A DNA stretch of 64,000 nt from Halopiger aswanensis (GTDB lineage Archaea; Halobacteriota; Halobacteria; Halobacteriales; Natrialbaceae). Shown in pieces: positions 22,402-59,908 of the stretch; the stretch's first letter is position 1, and each line of letters begins with the position of its first letter. The notes under the pieces were generated by a model. The model had not been told where the DNA came from. It made no database searches and saw nothing but the letters and a program-made list of their open reading frames with translations. The stretch covers positions 1,178,001 through 1,242,000 of the forward strand of contig NZ_RAPO01000001.1 of NCBI RefSeq assembly GCF_003610195.1, given 5' to 3'. A program made the translations under genes and the position numbers.

Positions 22402-24300
22402 CTATCGTCGACCGAAGATTCGCTTGTAGAGGCTGCGCTCCGTCGGTCGCTCTGCGAGCAACACCGACGCGTCGACCTCGTTGATGACGTCCAGATGGAG
22501 CGTGCTGGTGACGAGCCGCGAGAGCAGGCCGCGTTCGGTCGCCCCGATCAGGACCATCGTGTGATCGTCGGCGGCGCGACAGATCGCGTCCTCGACGTCG
22601 CCCGAGTCGTCGACGATGATCTCGGCGTCGGGTAAGTCGTGATCGATAGCCCACTCCGTGAGGAACTGTTCGCCGGCATCGCGCTCCTCGGGGCTGTCGA
22701 CGACGTGCAGGAGGGACACCTCGGACCCGTCTGTATCGGCGAGCGTGCGCGCGACCGCCGCACTCAGGTCCGAATCGGGACCCCCGGCCGTCGGCAGGAG
22801 GAGCCGCGACGTGTCCAGCCCGCGGTTCTTCAGGATGAGGTAGTCACACGGCAGCCGCGTCGTCAATTCGCTGAGCGGTCGTTCGGCCCGCGCGGCGCTC
22901 CACAGCGTGTTCTCGTCCCACCCCATCAACACGAGGTCGGCGTGCTCGCGGTCGGCCGTGTCGAAGATTTCCTCGAACGATCGGTGCGTGACGACCGTCG
23001 AGGTTTGGCAGTCGACCGCCTGACCGGTGACGATCTCCTCGAGATCGGCGAGCAGTTCTTCGGACTCGGAAACGATCCGATCGCGCTGTCTGTCGGCCGT
23101 CGCCGAGCTGCCGGGTGTCTGGACGATGTGTTCGACGTGAACGGTCGCGTGCTCGTGATCGCTCGCGAGCCGTGTGGCGAACTCGACGATCGGCGCTTCG
23201 GTCCGCGGATTGGCGATCGGAACCACGATCCGGTACGTCTCGTCGTCCTCGGGCGCCGTCGTTTCCGCAGTGTCGATCAGCGGGACGTACGATCGCCCGG
23301 CGAGGCTGCCGAACAGCCACTCCTGTGGGGTGAGCCGGCGTTCGATACCGTCGAACCGCGCGGACTCGAGGCGTTCCTCGCTGGTCTGGTAGTAGTTGAC
23401 GACGGTCACCAGCAGGATACCCCCGAGCGTGTTGCCGAGCAACACCGGCAACACGAAGTCGGTCACGCCGACGAGGACGGCGAGTTCGCCGGCGAAGACC
23501 AGATAGAGCATCTCGGTGAACGAGACGACGACGTGGAACAGGTTGCCGAGCGGAATCGCGAGGAAGGCGAGGTAGACGACGACGAGGCGGGAGATCGTAT
23601 CGCGAGAGGCGAAGGTCACCCAGACGACGCCGGCGACGATCAGTCCCGCAAAGGCCGCCTTGAAGAACAGTTGCCACCACGAGGTCTCGATTCCGTGGTG
23701 TGCGATAGACATCGCTGCATCCGCCGCATCGGGGTCGAAGACGCCGCCCCACGTGAGTGCGACCGCACCGAGAGCGCCGCCCGTGAAGTTACCGGCGAGG
23801 ACGATCAGCCAGTGGCGAAGCAACATCGGAAGGCTGGCCAACCGCTCGAGGGTCAGGGCGACCGGCGGGAGCGTGTTCTCGGTGTAGAGCTGGTAACCGC
23901 CGATAATGATGTAGATGAACCCGAGCGGGTAGAGCAGCGAACTCAGGATCGGATCGCCGCCGGTCGCACCGTACAGCGAGGCATACAGCAGAAACGTAAT
24001 CGTGATCGCGAAGCCGGCGGCCAACCCGCTGAAGAACAGTTCCCGGTTGCCGGACGTGACCTCCTCGTCGGCGGCCGCGACGATCCGTTGGAAGACCTCG
24101 TCGGACGAGAATCGATCGCGGACGACCGAGCCGACCGCCGGCGCGCCGTGTCTGGATCGCTCGACGGCGTCTCGGACGGCCGTACCCTGCTCGGCGACCG
24201 GGTCAGCCGACGCTGGTTCCGCCTGCTGACCGGAATCAGCATCGTCCGCGTCCCCCTGCGGGGGCGGGGAGCGTTCGGATTCGGGTTCGGGATCAGCCAT
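22402..24300 (-). CDS. Formate/nitrite-type channel fused to two UspA domains
   Basis: The 632-residue protein combines three modules. After an acidic, Q/E-rich cytosolic N-terminus, residues about 80-330 form a six-helix FNT channel domain: FFSGLAAGFAITITFLLYAS, LGFIYIIIGGYQLYTENTLP, LIVLAGNFTGGALGAV, a re-entrant-type LAIPLGNLFHVVVSF and LPVLLGNTLGGILLVTVVN. Residues about 365-510 and 515-625 are two universal-stress-protein domains. The second ends in a degenerate ATP-binding loop (LIGATERGLLSRL). FNT proteins conduct formate, nitrite or other small anions. Fused Usp domains probably sense nucleotide or energy state and gate or regulate transport. The ATG at 24300 is preferred, since an in-frame upstream extension lacks acidic character. 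No formate dehydrogenase or nitrite reductase is adjacent. Confidence 0.85.
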   Translation of the reverse strand: MADPEPESERSPPPQGDADDADSGQQAEPASADPVAEQGTAVRDAVERSRHGAPAVGSVVRDRFSSDEVFQRIVAAADEEVTSGNRELFFSGLAAGFAITITFLLYASLYGATGGDPILSSLLYPLGFIYIIIGGYQLYTENTLPPVALTLERLASLPMLLRHWLIVLAGNFTGGALGAVALTWGGVFDPDAADAAMSIAHHGIETSWWQLFFKAAFAGLIVAGVVWVTFASRDTISRLVVVYLAFLAIPLGNLFHVVVSFTEMLYLVFAGELAVLVGVTDFVLPVLLGNTLGGILLVTVVNYYQTSEERLESARFDGIERRLTPQEWLFGSLAGRSYVPLIDTAETTAPEDDETYRIVVPIANPRTEAPIVEFATRLASDHEHATVHVEHIVQTPGSSATADRQRDRIVSESEELLADLEEIVTGQAVDCQTSTVVTHRSFEEIFDTADREHADLVLMGWDENTLWSAARAERPLSELTTRLPCDYLILKNRGLDTSRLLLPTAGGPDSDLSAAVARTLADTDGSEVSLLHVVDSPEERDAGEQFLTEWAIDHDLPDAEIIVDDSGDVEDAICRAADDHTMVLIGATERGLLSRLVTSTLHLDVINEVDASVLLAERPTERSLYKRIFGRR

Positions 24301-24562
24301 TATGAGGAAACGAGTGGGTTGAAGAACTAAGACGTTGGCATTTCCGACGGTATCGAACTGGCTCAGATTTTCACATTCTCCCGTAAAAATAGACACGTGA
24401 TCGAATATCCGCCAACTCAGGACGCGAATATAAGCATCGACTCGGGGCGGCCGATGGACGCGCTACGCCCGCCGGACGCGCGGCCGACAAACGGCAAACG
24501 AGTCCGGAACCCGACGTATGTATGATACACGTTTTTCAGTTGGCCGATACTCACAACGACTC

Positions 24563-26050
24563 ATGCAATCGCTGGCCGGTTCGTCCGTCGTCGTGATCGG
24601 GGCCGGCGTCGGCGGTCTCGCGACGGCGTGTTACCTCGCCGACGCGGGCGCCGACGTCCAAGTCATCGAGAAAAACGAACAGTTGGGCGGACGCGCGAGT
24701 CACCTCGAGCGCGACGGCTTTCGGTTCGACATGGGACCCTCGTGGTACCTGATGCCGGACGTCTTCGAGCGCTTTTTCGCCGATTTCGACCGAACGCCCT
24801 CGGACTACTACGAACTCACCCACCTCGATCCCCACTACCGGATTTTCTTCAAGGACGGCGATCAGGTCGACATCACACCCGACCTCGAGCGGACCAAGGA
24901 CGTCTTCGACGAGTACGAGGACGGCGCCGGCGAGGCCCTCGAGCGATACCTCGCGAAGTCCAAGGAGAACTACGAGGTCGGGATGGAGCACTTCGTCTAC
25001 GAGGACCGACCGCGCCTGCGGGACTACCTCGATCTCGACGTCGCGCGCCAGGCCCGGGGCCTCTCGCTGCTGGGCTCGATGCAGGGCCACGTCGAGGGCT
25101 ACTTCGACCACCCGAAGCTCCAACAGATCATGCAGTACACGCTGGTGTTCCTCGGCGGCTCGCCGAAGAACACGCCCGCGCTCTACAACCTGATGAGCCA
25201 CGTGGATTTCAACCTCGGCGTCTGGTACCCCGACGGCGGGGTCGCCGCGGCCGTCGACGCGATCGCGGATCTCGGCCGGGAACTCGGCGTCGAGTACGAC
25301 ACGAACCGGCCGGCAACGGCGATCAAGGGCCGGGAAGGCGCCTTCCTCGTCGAGACTCCCGACGGCCCGCTCCGGCCGGATCTGGTCGTCAGCAACGCCG
25401 ACTACGCCCACACCGAGCAGGACCTGCTGCCCGCCGAACGGCGCGGCTACGACGCCGACTACTGGGAGTCCAGGACCTACGCTCCCTCCGCCTTCCTACT
25501 GTACCTCGGCCTCGAGGGCGAGGTCGACGACCTGGCCCACCACACGCTCGTCCTGCCGACCGACTGGGAGGAACACTTCGACCAGATCTTCGAGGACCCG
25601 CAGTGGCCCGATAACCCGGCCTACTACATTTGCGTCCCCTCCGAGACCGACGACGACGTCGCCCCGGACGGCCACAGCGCGCTGTTCGTCCTCGTGCCGA
25701 TCGCGCCCGGTCTCGAGGACACCCCCGAGATCCGCCAGCAGTACCGCGACAAGATCTTGGACGACATCGCCGACTACACCGGCACGAGCCTTCGCGATCG
25801 GATCGTCGTCGAGGAGCGGTTCTGCGTCGAGGACTTCGCGAACCGGTACAACAGCTACGACGGGACCGCGCTCGGGCTGGCCCACACCCTCCGCCAGACC
25901 GCGCTCTTCCGGCCGCCCCACCGCTCGAAGGGCGCCGACGGCCTCTACTTCGTCGGCGGCGACACGACGCCGGGGATCGGCGTCCCGATGTGTCTCATCA
26001 GCGGCGAACTGACCGCGGAGAAGGTGCTCGCGGATCACGGAGACGAGTGA
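24563..26050 (+). CDS. crtI: Phytoene/lycopene desaturase CrtI
   Basis: This 495-residue FAD enzyme introduces double bonds into phytoene, or into later C50 intermediates, during carotenoid synthesis. The dinucleotide-binding motif VVVIGAGVGGLATACYLADAG is at the N-terminus with EKNEQLGGRASHLERDGFRFDMGPSWY following, both given in part. The C-terminal FAD segment is LYFVGGDTTPGIGVPMCLIS. ATG at 24563 gives MQSLAGSSVVV, the usual start. An in-frame ATG at 24518 would add 15 residues. It heads a three-gene run with the elongase and hydratase, so its products feed bacterioruberin. Confidence 0.92.
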   Translation: MQSLAGSSVVVIGAGVGGLATACYLADAGADVQVIEKNEQLGGRASHLERDGFRFDMGPSWYLMPDVFERFFADFDRTPSDYYELTHLDPHYRIFFKDGDQVDITPDLERTKDVFDEYEDGAGEALERYLAKSKENYEVGMEHFVYEDRPRLRDYLDLDVARQARGLSLLGSMQGHVEGYFDHPKLQQIMQYTLVFLGGSPKNTPALYNLMSHVDFNLGVWYPDGGVAAAVDAIADLGRELGVEYDTNRPATAIKGREGAFLVETPDGPLRPDLVVSNADYAHTEQDLLPAERRGYDADYWESRTYAPSAFLLYLGLEGEVDDLAHHTLVLPTDWEEHFDQIFEDPQWPDNPAYYICVPSETDDDVAPDGHSALFVLVPIAPGLEDTPEIRQQYRDKILDDIADYTGTSLRDRIVVEERFCVEDFANRYNSYDGTALGLAHTLRQTALFRPPHRSKGADGLYFVGGDTTPGIGVPMCLISGELTAEKVLADHGDE

Positions 26051-26093
26051 CTGCGAGACGAATGTCCCAGTATCGCGATCCTCCGATCTGCCG

Positions 26094-27011
26094 ATGACCG
26101 ACGACCCGAACCCCGACGCCGGCGACCGGGAATCGCGGCCCTCGAGCGGCGCGTCGACGGCCGGCGATGCCGGGCTCCGCGATCGACTCGGCTATCTGCT
26201 CGTCCTCTCGCGGCCGCGGTTCTGGCTCTACCTCGCGGGACCGGTGCTGGTCGGGGTCGCGTACGCGGCGGAGTCACGAGCGGAGCTCTTCACTCCCGCG
26301 TCGGTCGTCCTCTTCGCGTACTTCCTGCTCCCGGCGAACGTCTTCCTCTACGGGATCAACGACATCTACGACCGGGATATCGACGCCGCGAACCCCAAAA
26401 AGGAGGAGCAGGAAGCGCGGTACCGCGGCCAGCGATACGTTCCTCTCGCGGTCGGCGTCTGTGCGGCGCTGCCGCTTGTGTTCGCGCCGCTTCTCGAGCC
26501 CGCGGTCTGGCCCTGGCTCGTCGTCTTCCTGCTGCTCGGGGCCGGCTACAGCGCGCCGCCGGTTCGGTTCAAGACGACGCCGATCCTGGACTCGGTCTCG
26601 AACGGCCTCTACGTCGCGCCGGGCGCCGCGGCCTACGCCGCAGTCGCCGGCGCACAGCCGCCAGCGATCGCCATTCTCGGCGCGTGGCTGTGGGCCATGG
26701 GCATGCACACCTTCTCGGCGATTCCCGACATCGAACCCGACCGCGCGACCGGCATCCGCACGACCGCGACGGTGCTGGGCGAACGGCGCACCTACGCCTA
26801 CTGCGGGGCGTGCTGGCTCGGCAGCGCCCTCGGGTTCGCCGCCGTCGACGTCCGACTCGGCGCCGTCATGCTCGTCTACCCGGCGCTAATCGGGGCGATC
26901 GTCTCCTCGAGCGTCGCGGTCGACCGGGCCTACTGGTGGTTCCCGGCGATCAACACCGTCGTCGGCGCGGTGCTGACGATGGGCGGACTCTGGAGGATCG
27001 TCAATGGATAG
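26094..27011 (+). CDS. lyeJ: Lycopene elongase (UbiA-family prenyltransferase)
   Basis: This 305-residue multi-pass membrane prenyltransferase adds C5 units to lycopene, making dihydrobisanhydrobacterioruberin, the first committed C50 step. The two aspartate-rich UbiA motifs are NDIYDRDIDAANPKKEE and PDIEPDRATGIRTTATVLG. Eight or so hydrophobic helices are visible. The position between crtI and the C50 hydratase gene is the known haloarchaeal arrangement and gives strong support. It overlaps the next gene by eight bases. The first 20 residues are acidic and probably cytosolic. Confidence 0.9.
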   Translation: MTDDPNPDAGDRESRPSSGASTAGDAGLRDRLGYLLVLSRPRFWLYLAGPVLVGVAYAAESRAELFTPASVVLFAYFLLPANVFLYGINDIYDRDIDAANPKKEEQEARYRGQRYVPLAVGVCAALPLVFAPLLEPAVWPWLVVFLLLGAGYSAPPVRFKTTPILDSVSNGLYVAPGAAAYAAVAGAQPPAIAILGAWLWAMGMHTFSAIPDIEPDRATGIRTTATVLGERRTYAYCGACWLGSALGFAAVDVRLGAVMLVYPALIGAIVSSSVAVDRAYWWFPAINTVVGAVLTMGGLWRIVNG

Positions 27012-27906
27012 GACCGACGCACACGATGCGGGCGGCGCTCCCGCTACGCACGCCCAAGAACACGGCGAGACGCGGACCGCCGTCCAGCGCCGCCTCGAGC
27101 GTCTGATCCGGGAGAACCGGTTTACGATCGCGGTCGTCTTCCCCGTCGTCGGCGCGCTGTTGCTGGTCGCGAGCGCCGAGAACCTCCTGCCGGCGCCGCT
27201 CGCGTACAATCCGCTGTTGATCTTCGTCGGGACCGCGGTCATGCGCTCGCCGCTGATCGTCGGCCTCCTGCCCCGGATCGATAGTCGGGCGCTGGCCTGT
27301 CTCGGTCTGCTGACGGCCTACACCTACGCGATCGAGACCGTCGGCGTGCGTACGGACTGGCCCTACGGCGCCTTCGAGTACGGCATCGAGTTGGGGCCGA
27401 TGCTCAACGGCGAGATACCGCTCGCGCTGCCGCTGTTTTTCATCCCGCTCGTGCTGAACGCCGTTCTGCTCACCCTGCTGGTCCTCGAGCGGTGGTGGCC
27501 GCGCGGCCTCGAGCGGGCGCTGGTCAGGCTGCCGGTCGCCGTCGCCGCCGTCGTCGCGGTCGACCTCGTCCTCGATCCGGGCGCGGTCGCGATCGGCTTC
27601 TGGAGCTACGAGACGGGCGGCTACTACGGCGTCCCGCTCTCGAACTATCGGGGCTGGCTCCTCTCGGGCGCGGTCGCCGTCGCGCTCGTCGATCTCGCCT
27701 TCGACCGGGCGGCGCTGCTCGAGCGCGTCCGGACCTGCGAGTTCGTGTTGGACGATCTGGTGAGCTTCGTGCTGCTGTGGGGGGCGATCAACCTACTGTA
27801 CGGCAACTGGATCGCCGCGGCCGTCGCGGGGCTGTTCTGCGCCGGCCTGTTCAGCACCGATCGCTACGACTGGGCGATGGTCCGAACGGCGCTCTCGAGC
27901 GGGTAA
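27004..27906 (+). CDS. cruF: Bisanhydrobacterioruberin hydratase CruF
   Basis: This 300-residue membrane protein of the carotenoid 1,2-hydratase (DUF422-type) family adds water to the C50 chain ends, giving the four hydroxyls of bacterioruberin. After a charged N-terminus it has seven or eight hydrophobic helices. These include AFEYGIELGPMLNGEIPLAL, IGFWSYETGGYYGVPLSNY with the downstream GWLLSG, and conserved polar positions in VRTDWPYG. The eight-base overlap with the elongase shows tight coupling. With crtI, the elongase and crtB nearby, the pathway from phytoene to bacterioruberin is essentially complete here. Confidence 0.88.
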   Translation: MDRTDAHDAGGAPATHAQEHGETRTAVQRRLERLIRENRFTIAVVFPVVGALLLVASAENLLPAPLAYNPLLIFVGTAVMRSPLIVGLLPRIDSRALACLGLLTAYTYAIETVGVRTDWPYGAFEYGIELGPMLNGEIPLALPLFFIPLVLNAVLLTLLVLERWWPRGLERALVRLPVAVAAVVAVDLVLDPGAVAIGFWSYETGGYYGVPLSNYRGWLLSGAVAVALVDLAFDRAALLERVRTCEFVLDDLVSFVLLWGAINLLYGNWIAAAVAGLFCAGLFSTDRYDWAMVRTALSSG

Positions 27907-59473: not shown

Positions 59474-59908
59474 ATGTCTCGAAAGACGATGGTCGCGTAC
59501 GACGGCTCGCCCCAGGCCAAGGCGGCGCTCCGGTACGCGCTCGAGGAGTACCCCGAGGCGGAGATCACCGCAGTCCACGTTATCCGGCTCCCGGAGGGGT
59601 ACTGGACGCTGTTCGTCGAGTCGGAGGAGGACTTCCCGGGCCGCGAACGGGCGGAGGCGCAGGCCCGGGACCTCCTCGATGAGGCCGACGAGATGACGGC
59701 AGGGGCCGATCGCTCCCTCGAGACGGTGATAGTGAAAGGCGAACCCGCGCAGGAGCTCGTCGACTACGCGATCGACAACGACTTCGACCAGATCGTCATG
59801 GGCAGCCACGGGCGACAGGGGGCCAGCCGACTACTGTTCGGGAGCGTCGCCGAGAAAGTCGTGCGGCGAGCGCCCATGACCGTGGTGGTGGTCCACGAAA
59901 CGGAGTAA
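59474..59908 (+). CDS. Universal stress protein UspA
   Basis: This 144-residue single-domain Usp has the ATP-binding signature GSHGRQGASRLLFGSVAEKV (G2xG9xGS) near the C-terminus and MVAYDGSPQAKAALRYALEE at the start. The protein probably binds ATP and helps survival in stress. ATG at 59474 is used; an in-frame ATG at 59459 would add five residues. A TTATGTT element is near the expected promoter position. It is divergent from the hydrolase gene. Confidence 0.85.
   Translation: MSRKTMVAYDGSPQAKAALRYALEEYPEAEITAVHVIRLPEGYWTLFVESEEDFPGRERAEAQARDLLDEADEMTAGADRSLETVIVKGEPAQELVDYAIDNDFDQIVMGSHGRQGASRLLFGSVAEKVVRRAPMTVVVVHETE

Follow-up and report, generated by a model that had tools for sequence, protein, structure and literature searches.

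A 64,000-nt stretch of the Halopiger aswanensis genome, referred to here as the window, contains on its minus strand a 632-residue open reading frame (ORF) in which a formate/nitrite transporter (FNT) channel is continued, within one chain, by two universal stress protein (Usp) domains. This arrangement raises the question of what the channel passes and what the Usp domains contribute to it. A preliminary description of the locus had regarded the fusion as unusual, left the transported ion open and suggested that the Usp domains gate anion flux according to the energy status of the cell.

Anatomy, distribution and surroundings of the fused gene

The Form_Nir_trans profile (PF01226, profile positions 1 to 240) matched the channel part with 173.9 bits against a cut-off of 34.6, and the two Usp parts, submitted separately, scored 45.2 and 33.2 bits, both of which pass the curated Pfam Usp cut-off of 24 bits (Table 1). 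The ORF and the Pfam matches thus confirmed that an FNT channel and two Usp domains are joined in one protein. Because near-full-length collinear orthologues with 59 to 95% identity occur across the whole class, we consider this ORF a real gene and not a chance frame, and the FNT-Usp-Usp anatomy, taken alone, is close to certain. An alignment of 40 sequences revealed that residues 43 to 66 of the N-terminal tail are highly conserved, and that the first 40 residues are variable and acidic. Two further FNT genes are present in the same genome, both without a tail.

Table 1. Features of the FNT-Usp-Usp gene, its divergent neighbours and the tail-bearing permeases of the same genome (positions refer to the window unless a locus is named)
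Feature	Position	Strand	Basis or remark
Whole gene, FNT-Usp-Usp	22402..24300	-	632 aa plus stop; ATG at 24300, stop at 22402-22404; Pfam, orthologues
N-terminal cytoplasmic tail, residues 1-66	24103..24300	-	40-sequence alignment
FNT channel domain, assigned to the YfdC type, residues 68-304	23389..24099	-	Pfam PF01226, E 4.9e-51; pore residues; tree
Omega-loop T140-E141-N142 (FocA T91-S92-T93)	23875..23883	-	alignment
G219 at FocA N172, YfdC hallmark	23644..23646	-	40/40
H256, central pore histidine (FocA H209)	23533..23535	-	40/40
Linker, residues 305-356, with conserved QTSE.RLESARF and GRSYVP	23233..23388	-	40-sequence alignment
Usp domain 1, residues 357-490	22831..23232	-	Pfam PF00582; five strands in AF2 model
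Usp1 beta4-alpha4 loop, residues 460-474	22879..22923	-	alignment
Usp domain 2, residues 499-615	22456..22806	-	Pfam PF00582, 33.2 bits alone
Usp2 beta4-alpha4 loop, residues 586-600 (GATERGLLSRLVTST)	22501..22545	-	alignment
Bacterioruberin genes CrtID, UbiA, CruF	24518-27906	+	divergent from FNT-Usp-Usp
Two adjacent APC permeases with tandem Usp tail, same genome	locus L101, 4563-6878 and 7068-9437	-	tail search, Pfam

With the whole protein as the query, some match was obtained in 385 of 391 sampled Halobacteria genomes, and a match covering both channel and tail at E 1e-200 or better in 237 of the 391. Two of the genomes (G376 and G201) carry two near-full-length FNT-Usp-Usp genes each, on separate contigs. 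Among 72,556 plasmids, ten records with at least 80% query coverage were found, all of them haloarchaeal (Natrinema, Halocatena, Haladaptatus, Salinigranum and Halobaculum) and annotated only as "formate/nitrite transporter family protein". A scan of genome contigs that used this protein alone as the query recovered just three loci, the coverage of named organisms there being thin. Outside Halobacteria, but within the same phylum, every listed FNT frame measured approximately 200 to 345 aa, i.e., lacked the tail.

The fusion has also been described before. In the part of their paper that concerns these transporters, Anderson et al. (2011; PMC3102087) reported several haloarchaeal FNT transporters fused or adjacent to UspA domains, listed five of them (Htur_2705, Hlac_2299, Hmuk_1674, HQ1451A and NP6264A), proposed formate as the substrate since folate enzymes are neighbours of two members of the group, and noted that Usp domains are linked to APC as well as FNT transporters. 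Our comparison with these five proteins relies on the description in that paper and not on sequences fetched by name. A literature search for experiments on any FNT-Usp-Usp member found none. Collectively, the 237 genomes, the ten plasmids and the 2011 report rule out that the architecture is unusual; the FNT-Usp fusion is already known and widespread in haloarchaea, and its published description comes with a proposed, not a measured, substrate.

The gene is flanked by an SDR gene and, divergently, by a bacterioruberin cluster, in which CrtID (phytoene/3,4-desaturase, NF058655) and CruF (hydratase, NF041333) both score above cut-off and which also includes a UbiA prenyltransferase. The earlier remark that no formate or nitrite enzyme is adjacent therefore holds. 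Of 40 loci sampled, the 9 with the bacterioruberin arrangement all belong to the family of H. aswanensis itself, and it was seen at none of the others. The genes up to 7 kb away from the fused gene in 40 genomes, representing nearly as many genera, included no cluster conserved across families, and no formate, folate or nitrite family appeared among the 25 commonest neighbour Pfams in a tally of the four nearest neighbours at 31 loci (136 further families are unlisted). The map of its neighbours thus revealed no functional partner, and genome neighbours were rejected as a clue to the substrate.

Pore type and substrate

In an alignment with FocA, NirC and YfdC of Escherichia coli, the channel kept T140 and H256, the counterparts of FocA T91 and H209, which are essential in that protein (PMC9380403). 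Each of the two is present in 40 of 40 genomes, as is E141, and N142 was found in 39. The FocA residues F75, L79, S92, T93, K156, N172, F202, A212 and N254 correspond to Y, F, E, N, G, G, I, V and F, respectively, and these nine positions match E. coli YfdC with the single exception of K156, which is Val in E. coli YfdC. FocA K156, N172 and F202 are hence replaced by G203, G219 and I249; the central constriction consists of Tyr124, Ile249, His256 and Val259 (YIHV), and aromatic residues, Phe128 and Phe282, occupy the positions of FocA L79 and N254. These hallmark pore positions were invariant or nearly so across the 40 genomes.

Residues by which the YfdC-alpha subfamily is recognized were found throughout (F128, E141, N142, G219, F282 and the Y124/I249/H256/V259 constriction). 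Two of its traits were absent, namely, the charged residue at G86 (G135, in 39 of 40) and the Pro at K100 seen in about 75% of members (L149, in 40 of 40); both traits are frequent, not invariant, and the YfdC placement rests on the other residues and on the tree. In the FNT tree, whose long branches call for caution, the channel joined E. coli YfdC with an SH-aLRT support of 91, and the wider split from FocA, NirC and methanogen FNTs received a support of 100. The scores of the subfamily models were far below the cut-offs for FocA (NCBIfam formate_focA, 74.7 against 290) and NirC (equivalog, 25.2 bits against 293), and K156, N172 and F202, which both of these subfamilies carry, are missing. 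Judged by its residues and phylogeny, the pore is YfdC-type and not FocA- or NirC-like. The designation as a formate/nitrite-type channel is hence right as to family but not as to subfamily.

This assignment bears directly on the substrate. Mukherjee et al. (2017; PMC5525234) found such a residue pattern to be typical of the uncharacterized YfdC subfamilies, into which most archaeal FNTs fall and for which they argued a different substrate. Since no substrate of a YfdC-type FNT is known, neither formate nor nitrite should be assumed. Moreover, a 2020 computation, as reported in a review (PMC10789880), suggested neutral or cationic solutes for YfdC-alpha, so that even the "anion" of the preliminary description is uncertain and should not be presupposed. 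There is a genuine question as to the substrate, and it should start from YfdC rather than from formate or nitrite. Formate is at most a possible substrate: apart from the folate enzymes beside two of the previously reported Usp-linked FNTs, the genome of H. aswanensis encodes two alpha subunits of formate dehydrogenase that score above the curated cut-off. These lie far from the fused gene, however, formyl-THF ligase was not found in the genome, and the pore is devoid of K156 and N172, both of which are necessary for the passage of formate through FocA (PMC9380403). Two observations provide a weak lead toward bicarbonate: a PDB search with the channel sequence gave the algal low-CO2 inducible FNT LCIA as one of its best matches, and carbonic anhydrases accounted for 2 of the 126 proteins neighbouring the fused genes.

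The tandem Usp tail and its relatives

The canonical ATP loop of Usp proteins of the ATP-binding, UspFG-type class reads G-2X-G-9X-G-(S/T), and an Asp in beta1 contacts the nucleotide (PMC12159084). In Usp1, the last G-(S/T) is replaced by E473-R474 and beta1 reads A-N-P instead of carrying Asp, while W461, W467, R471 and R474 are each kept in at least 38 of 40 sequences. Usp2 has an invariant first loop Gly (G586), an equally invariant but shifted G591, and Ala505 in beta1; the last loop Gly is S599 in H. aswanensis and is Asp in 20, Gly in 9 and Ser in 6 of the 40 sequences. The strict motif was absent from the H. aswanensis protein and present in 3 of 69 tandem modules. By these residues, both loops are degenerate, that of Usp1 more strongly so, and the earlier statement that the second Usp domain has a degenerate nucleotide loop was correct but applies even more to the first. 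At the last loop position, tails linked to APC permeases carry Gly in 15 of 22 cases, versus 9 of 40 in FNT-linked tails. The last phosphate-loop Gly thus appears to be mostly lost in the FNT lineage, a pattern consistent with canonical phosphate binding having been lost once the tail was fused, if the direction that we infer is right.

A search of the tail against all PDB chains by phmmer yielded no Usp or CCC (cation-chloride cotransporter) match, and relatives were found only by fold comparison. An AF2 model of the tandem tail, built from four sequences, reached a pLDDT of 71 and a pTM of 0.74. It matched the C-terminal domains (CTDs) of KCC4 (Z 17.9) and of a prokaryotic CCC (Z 17.7) as well as the tandem Usp proteins YdaA/UspE (Z 17.0) and TTHA0350 (Z 16.9); at 7 to 20% identity and with Z scores within 1, these matches are tied and do not separate the two groups. 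The tail is therefore predicted by the model to adopt a tandem Usp fold, which is also that of cation-chloride cotransporter CTDs. The model of the full-length protein was poor (pLDDT 51.7) and could not be used to position the tail with respect to the pore. A common fold does not show a common function. As precedents, KCC C-terminal domains resemble Usp proteins and have a Usp-like nucleotide site, and the Usp protein TeaD regulates the transporter TeaABC (PMC8280820).

These data allowed us to weigh the proposal that the protein conducts formate and that the cellular ATP level gates this flux via the Usp domains. As both Usp domains depart from the canonical loop and lack the beta1 Asp, gating by ATP is not supported and the suggested link to energy status is weakened. 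Yet degenerate Usp folds can still bind ATP, as in KCC1 (PMC8280820) and, according to a citation in PMC12159084, in TTHA0350, and the likeness of the tail to a KCC CTD with its nucleotide pocket keeps ATP binding open. With the pore residues that FocA needs for formate missing and no adjacent formate enzyme, we regard the combined proposal as unlikely.

A search of the H. aswanensis genome with the tail alone identified two copies with 52 to 53% identity. One lies at the C-terminal end of a protein of 789 aa, which also has an amino-acid permease domain (E 2.8e-45) and matches Usp in two stretches; the other is carried by a frame with a likewise permease-like N-terminus. The tail was present in 52 of 59 genomes searched, and the sampled tail loci comprised 40 with an FNT, 22 with an APC permease and 7 with the tail alone or nearly so; at three loci (L059, L065 and L075), APC-Usp permeases lie near the fused gene. 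What is new here is the close kinship of the FNT- and APC-linked tails. The genome of H. aswanensis holds about 75 Usp domain matches altogether, many of them in contig C4 (about 119 to 184 kb), where several tandem frames of 290 to 390 aa occur, and the window itself carries a separate Usp gene at 59474-59896 (+) with a strong match of 114 bits.

FNT-linked tails formed one clade (support 100/100), and so did the fused FNT domains (SH-aLRT 98). Since both are monophyletic, the simplest account suggested by these trees would be a single FNT-tail fusion followed by vertical spread. A split version, i.e., a tail-less FNT next to a separate copy of the tandem, was not found in 16 haloarchaeal regions searched over about 2 kb on each side, a search that was sensitive to this tandem and would miss other Usp types. 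One 664-aa frame (L168), considered as a further FNT fusion, was dropped, as no Pfam domain was detected ahead of its FNT part. In a genome of the same phylum but outside Halobacteria (G417), a tail-less FNT (L166) is 60% identical to the Halopiger channel and adjoins another FNT, which is divergent and encoded on the other strand; the tail-less FNT may represent a transfer from haloarchaea or a near outgroup.

Other haloarchaea retain close FNT relatives that lack the tail, so that the channel family as a whole can do without it. This fact, along with the degenerate loops, would suit a tail that senses nothing and serves a structural end, such as pentamer stability, membrane targeting or halophilic solubility. 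W461, W467, R471, R474, the R440-S441-F442 stretch and a GATE.G...R motif are strongly conserved across more than 30 genera, however, and the reuse of the same tail by APC permeases argues for a specific role; we find a purely structural tail quite unlikely. Finally, a tail that receives another nucleotide, e.g., c-di-AMP (compare the Usp domain of Staphylococcus aureus KdpD), and links the channel to osmotic signalling is distinctly improbable: Usp domains without an ATP loop can bind c-di-AMP (PMC8214093) and the first loop Gly of Usp2, which contacts the ribose in both ligands, is kept in 40 of 40 sequences, but the published KdpD-type motif, (A/G/C)XSXSX2N(Y/F), searched for as [AGC]-X-S-X-S-X2-N, occurred in 0 of 69 tandem modules.

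Proposed mechanism and comparison with known systems

The reading that we favour, and hold to be probable if only modestly so, is that of a YfdC-type channel with a regulatory tail, a portable tandem of Usp domains that pair with each other as a pseudo-dimer, the regulatory role being suggested by the architecture. By analogy with other FNTs, the channel would be pentameric, and pairing of the two Usp domains within one chain would place five self-paired units at its cytoplasmic mouth, which would spare a channel of five-fold symmetry the need for two-fold Usp pairing between subunits. The tail could then act as an allosteric, assembly or docking module near the Omega-loop gate. There it would respond to something other than canonically bound ATP, be it a ligand or a protein partner, and under stress would adjust the flux of a small metabolite that is either weakly acidic or neutral. 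The proton-coupled passage typical of FNTs would be in keeping with H256 and T140. A bolder version holds that, in haloarchaea, one portable tandem-Usp tail, resembling in build the regulatory tail of animal CCCs, controls two unrelated transporter folds, APC and the pentameric YfdC-type, that the tail of the channel lineage has swapped ATP for another ligand or partner read by the Trp/Arg cluster, and that the pore passes neither formate nor nitrite; we put this forward tentatively and find it doubtful as a whole.

Within their channel family, YfdC-type FNTs form an uncharacterized part, and there is no consensus on what Usp domains do at the molecular level. In a channel-Usp fusion that occurs naturally and is retained by most haloarchaea, a Usp domain is coupled to an output that can be measured, namely flux, and the common tail on APC permeases, with its KCC/NKCC-like fold, would allow Usp control of transport, and its ligand, to be tested.

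The proteins reported by Anderson et al. are, like the one described here, haloarchaeal FNT transporters with a UspA domain, fused or adjacent, and the passage on them in PMC3102087 contains no pore analysis, no mention of two domains and no reference to degenerate loops. E. coli YfdC has the T-E-N Omega loop, the Gly at N172, the aromatic residue at N254, the Y/I/H/V central constriction and the pore His in common with the H. aswanensis channel, but it has no Usp tail; the YfdC-alpha subfamily frequently carries Pro at FocA K100, where Leu149 is found here. In the APC permeases (e.g., L101 7068-9437), the tail is 52 to 53% identical and the domain order is alike, whereas the membrane domain is unrelated to FNT. 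Tandem Usp proteins (UspE/YdaA, TTHA0350, Rv2623 and the AF protein 3loq) also contain two Usp units per chain and match the modelled tail with Z scores of 15 to 17, yet they are soluble and not attached to a channel. The CTDs of CCCs (KCC, NKCC, NCC and the prokaryotic CCC 3g40) match it with Z scores of 17 to 18, have two Usp-like lobes and likewise form the cytoplasmic C-terminal tail of a membrane transporter, but they share only 7 to 15% identity with the FNT-linked tail. CCC domains sit on a dimeric carrier of the APC fold, whereas FNTs are pentameric channels.
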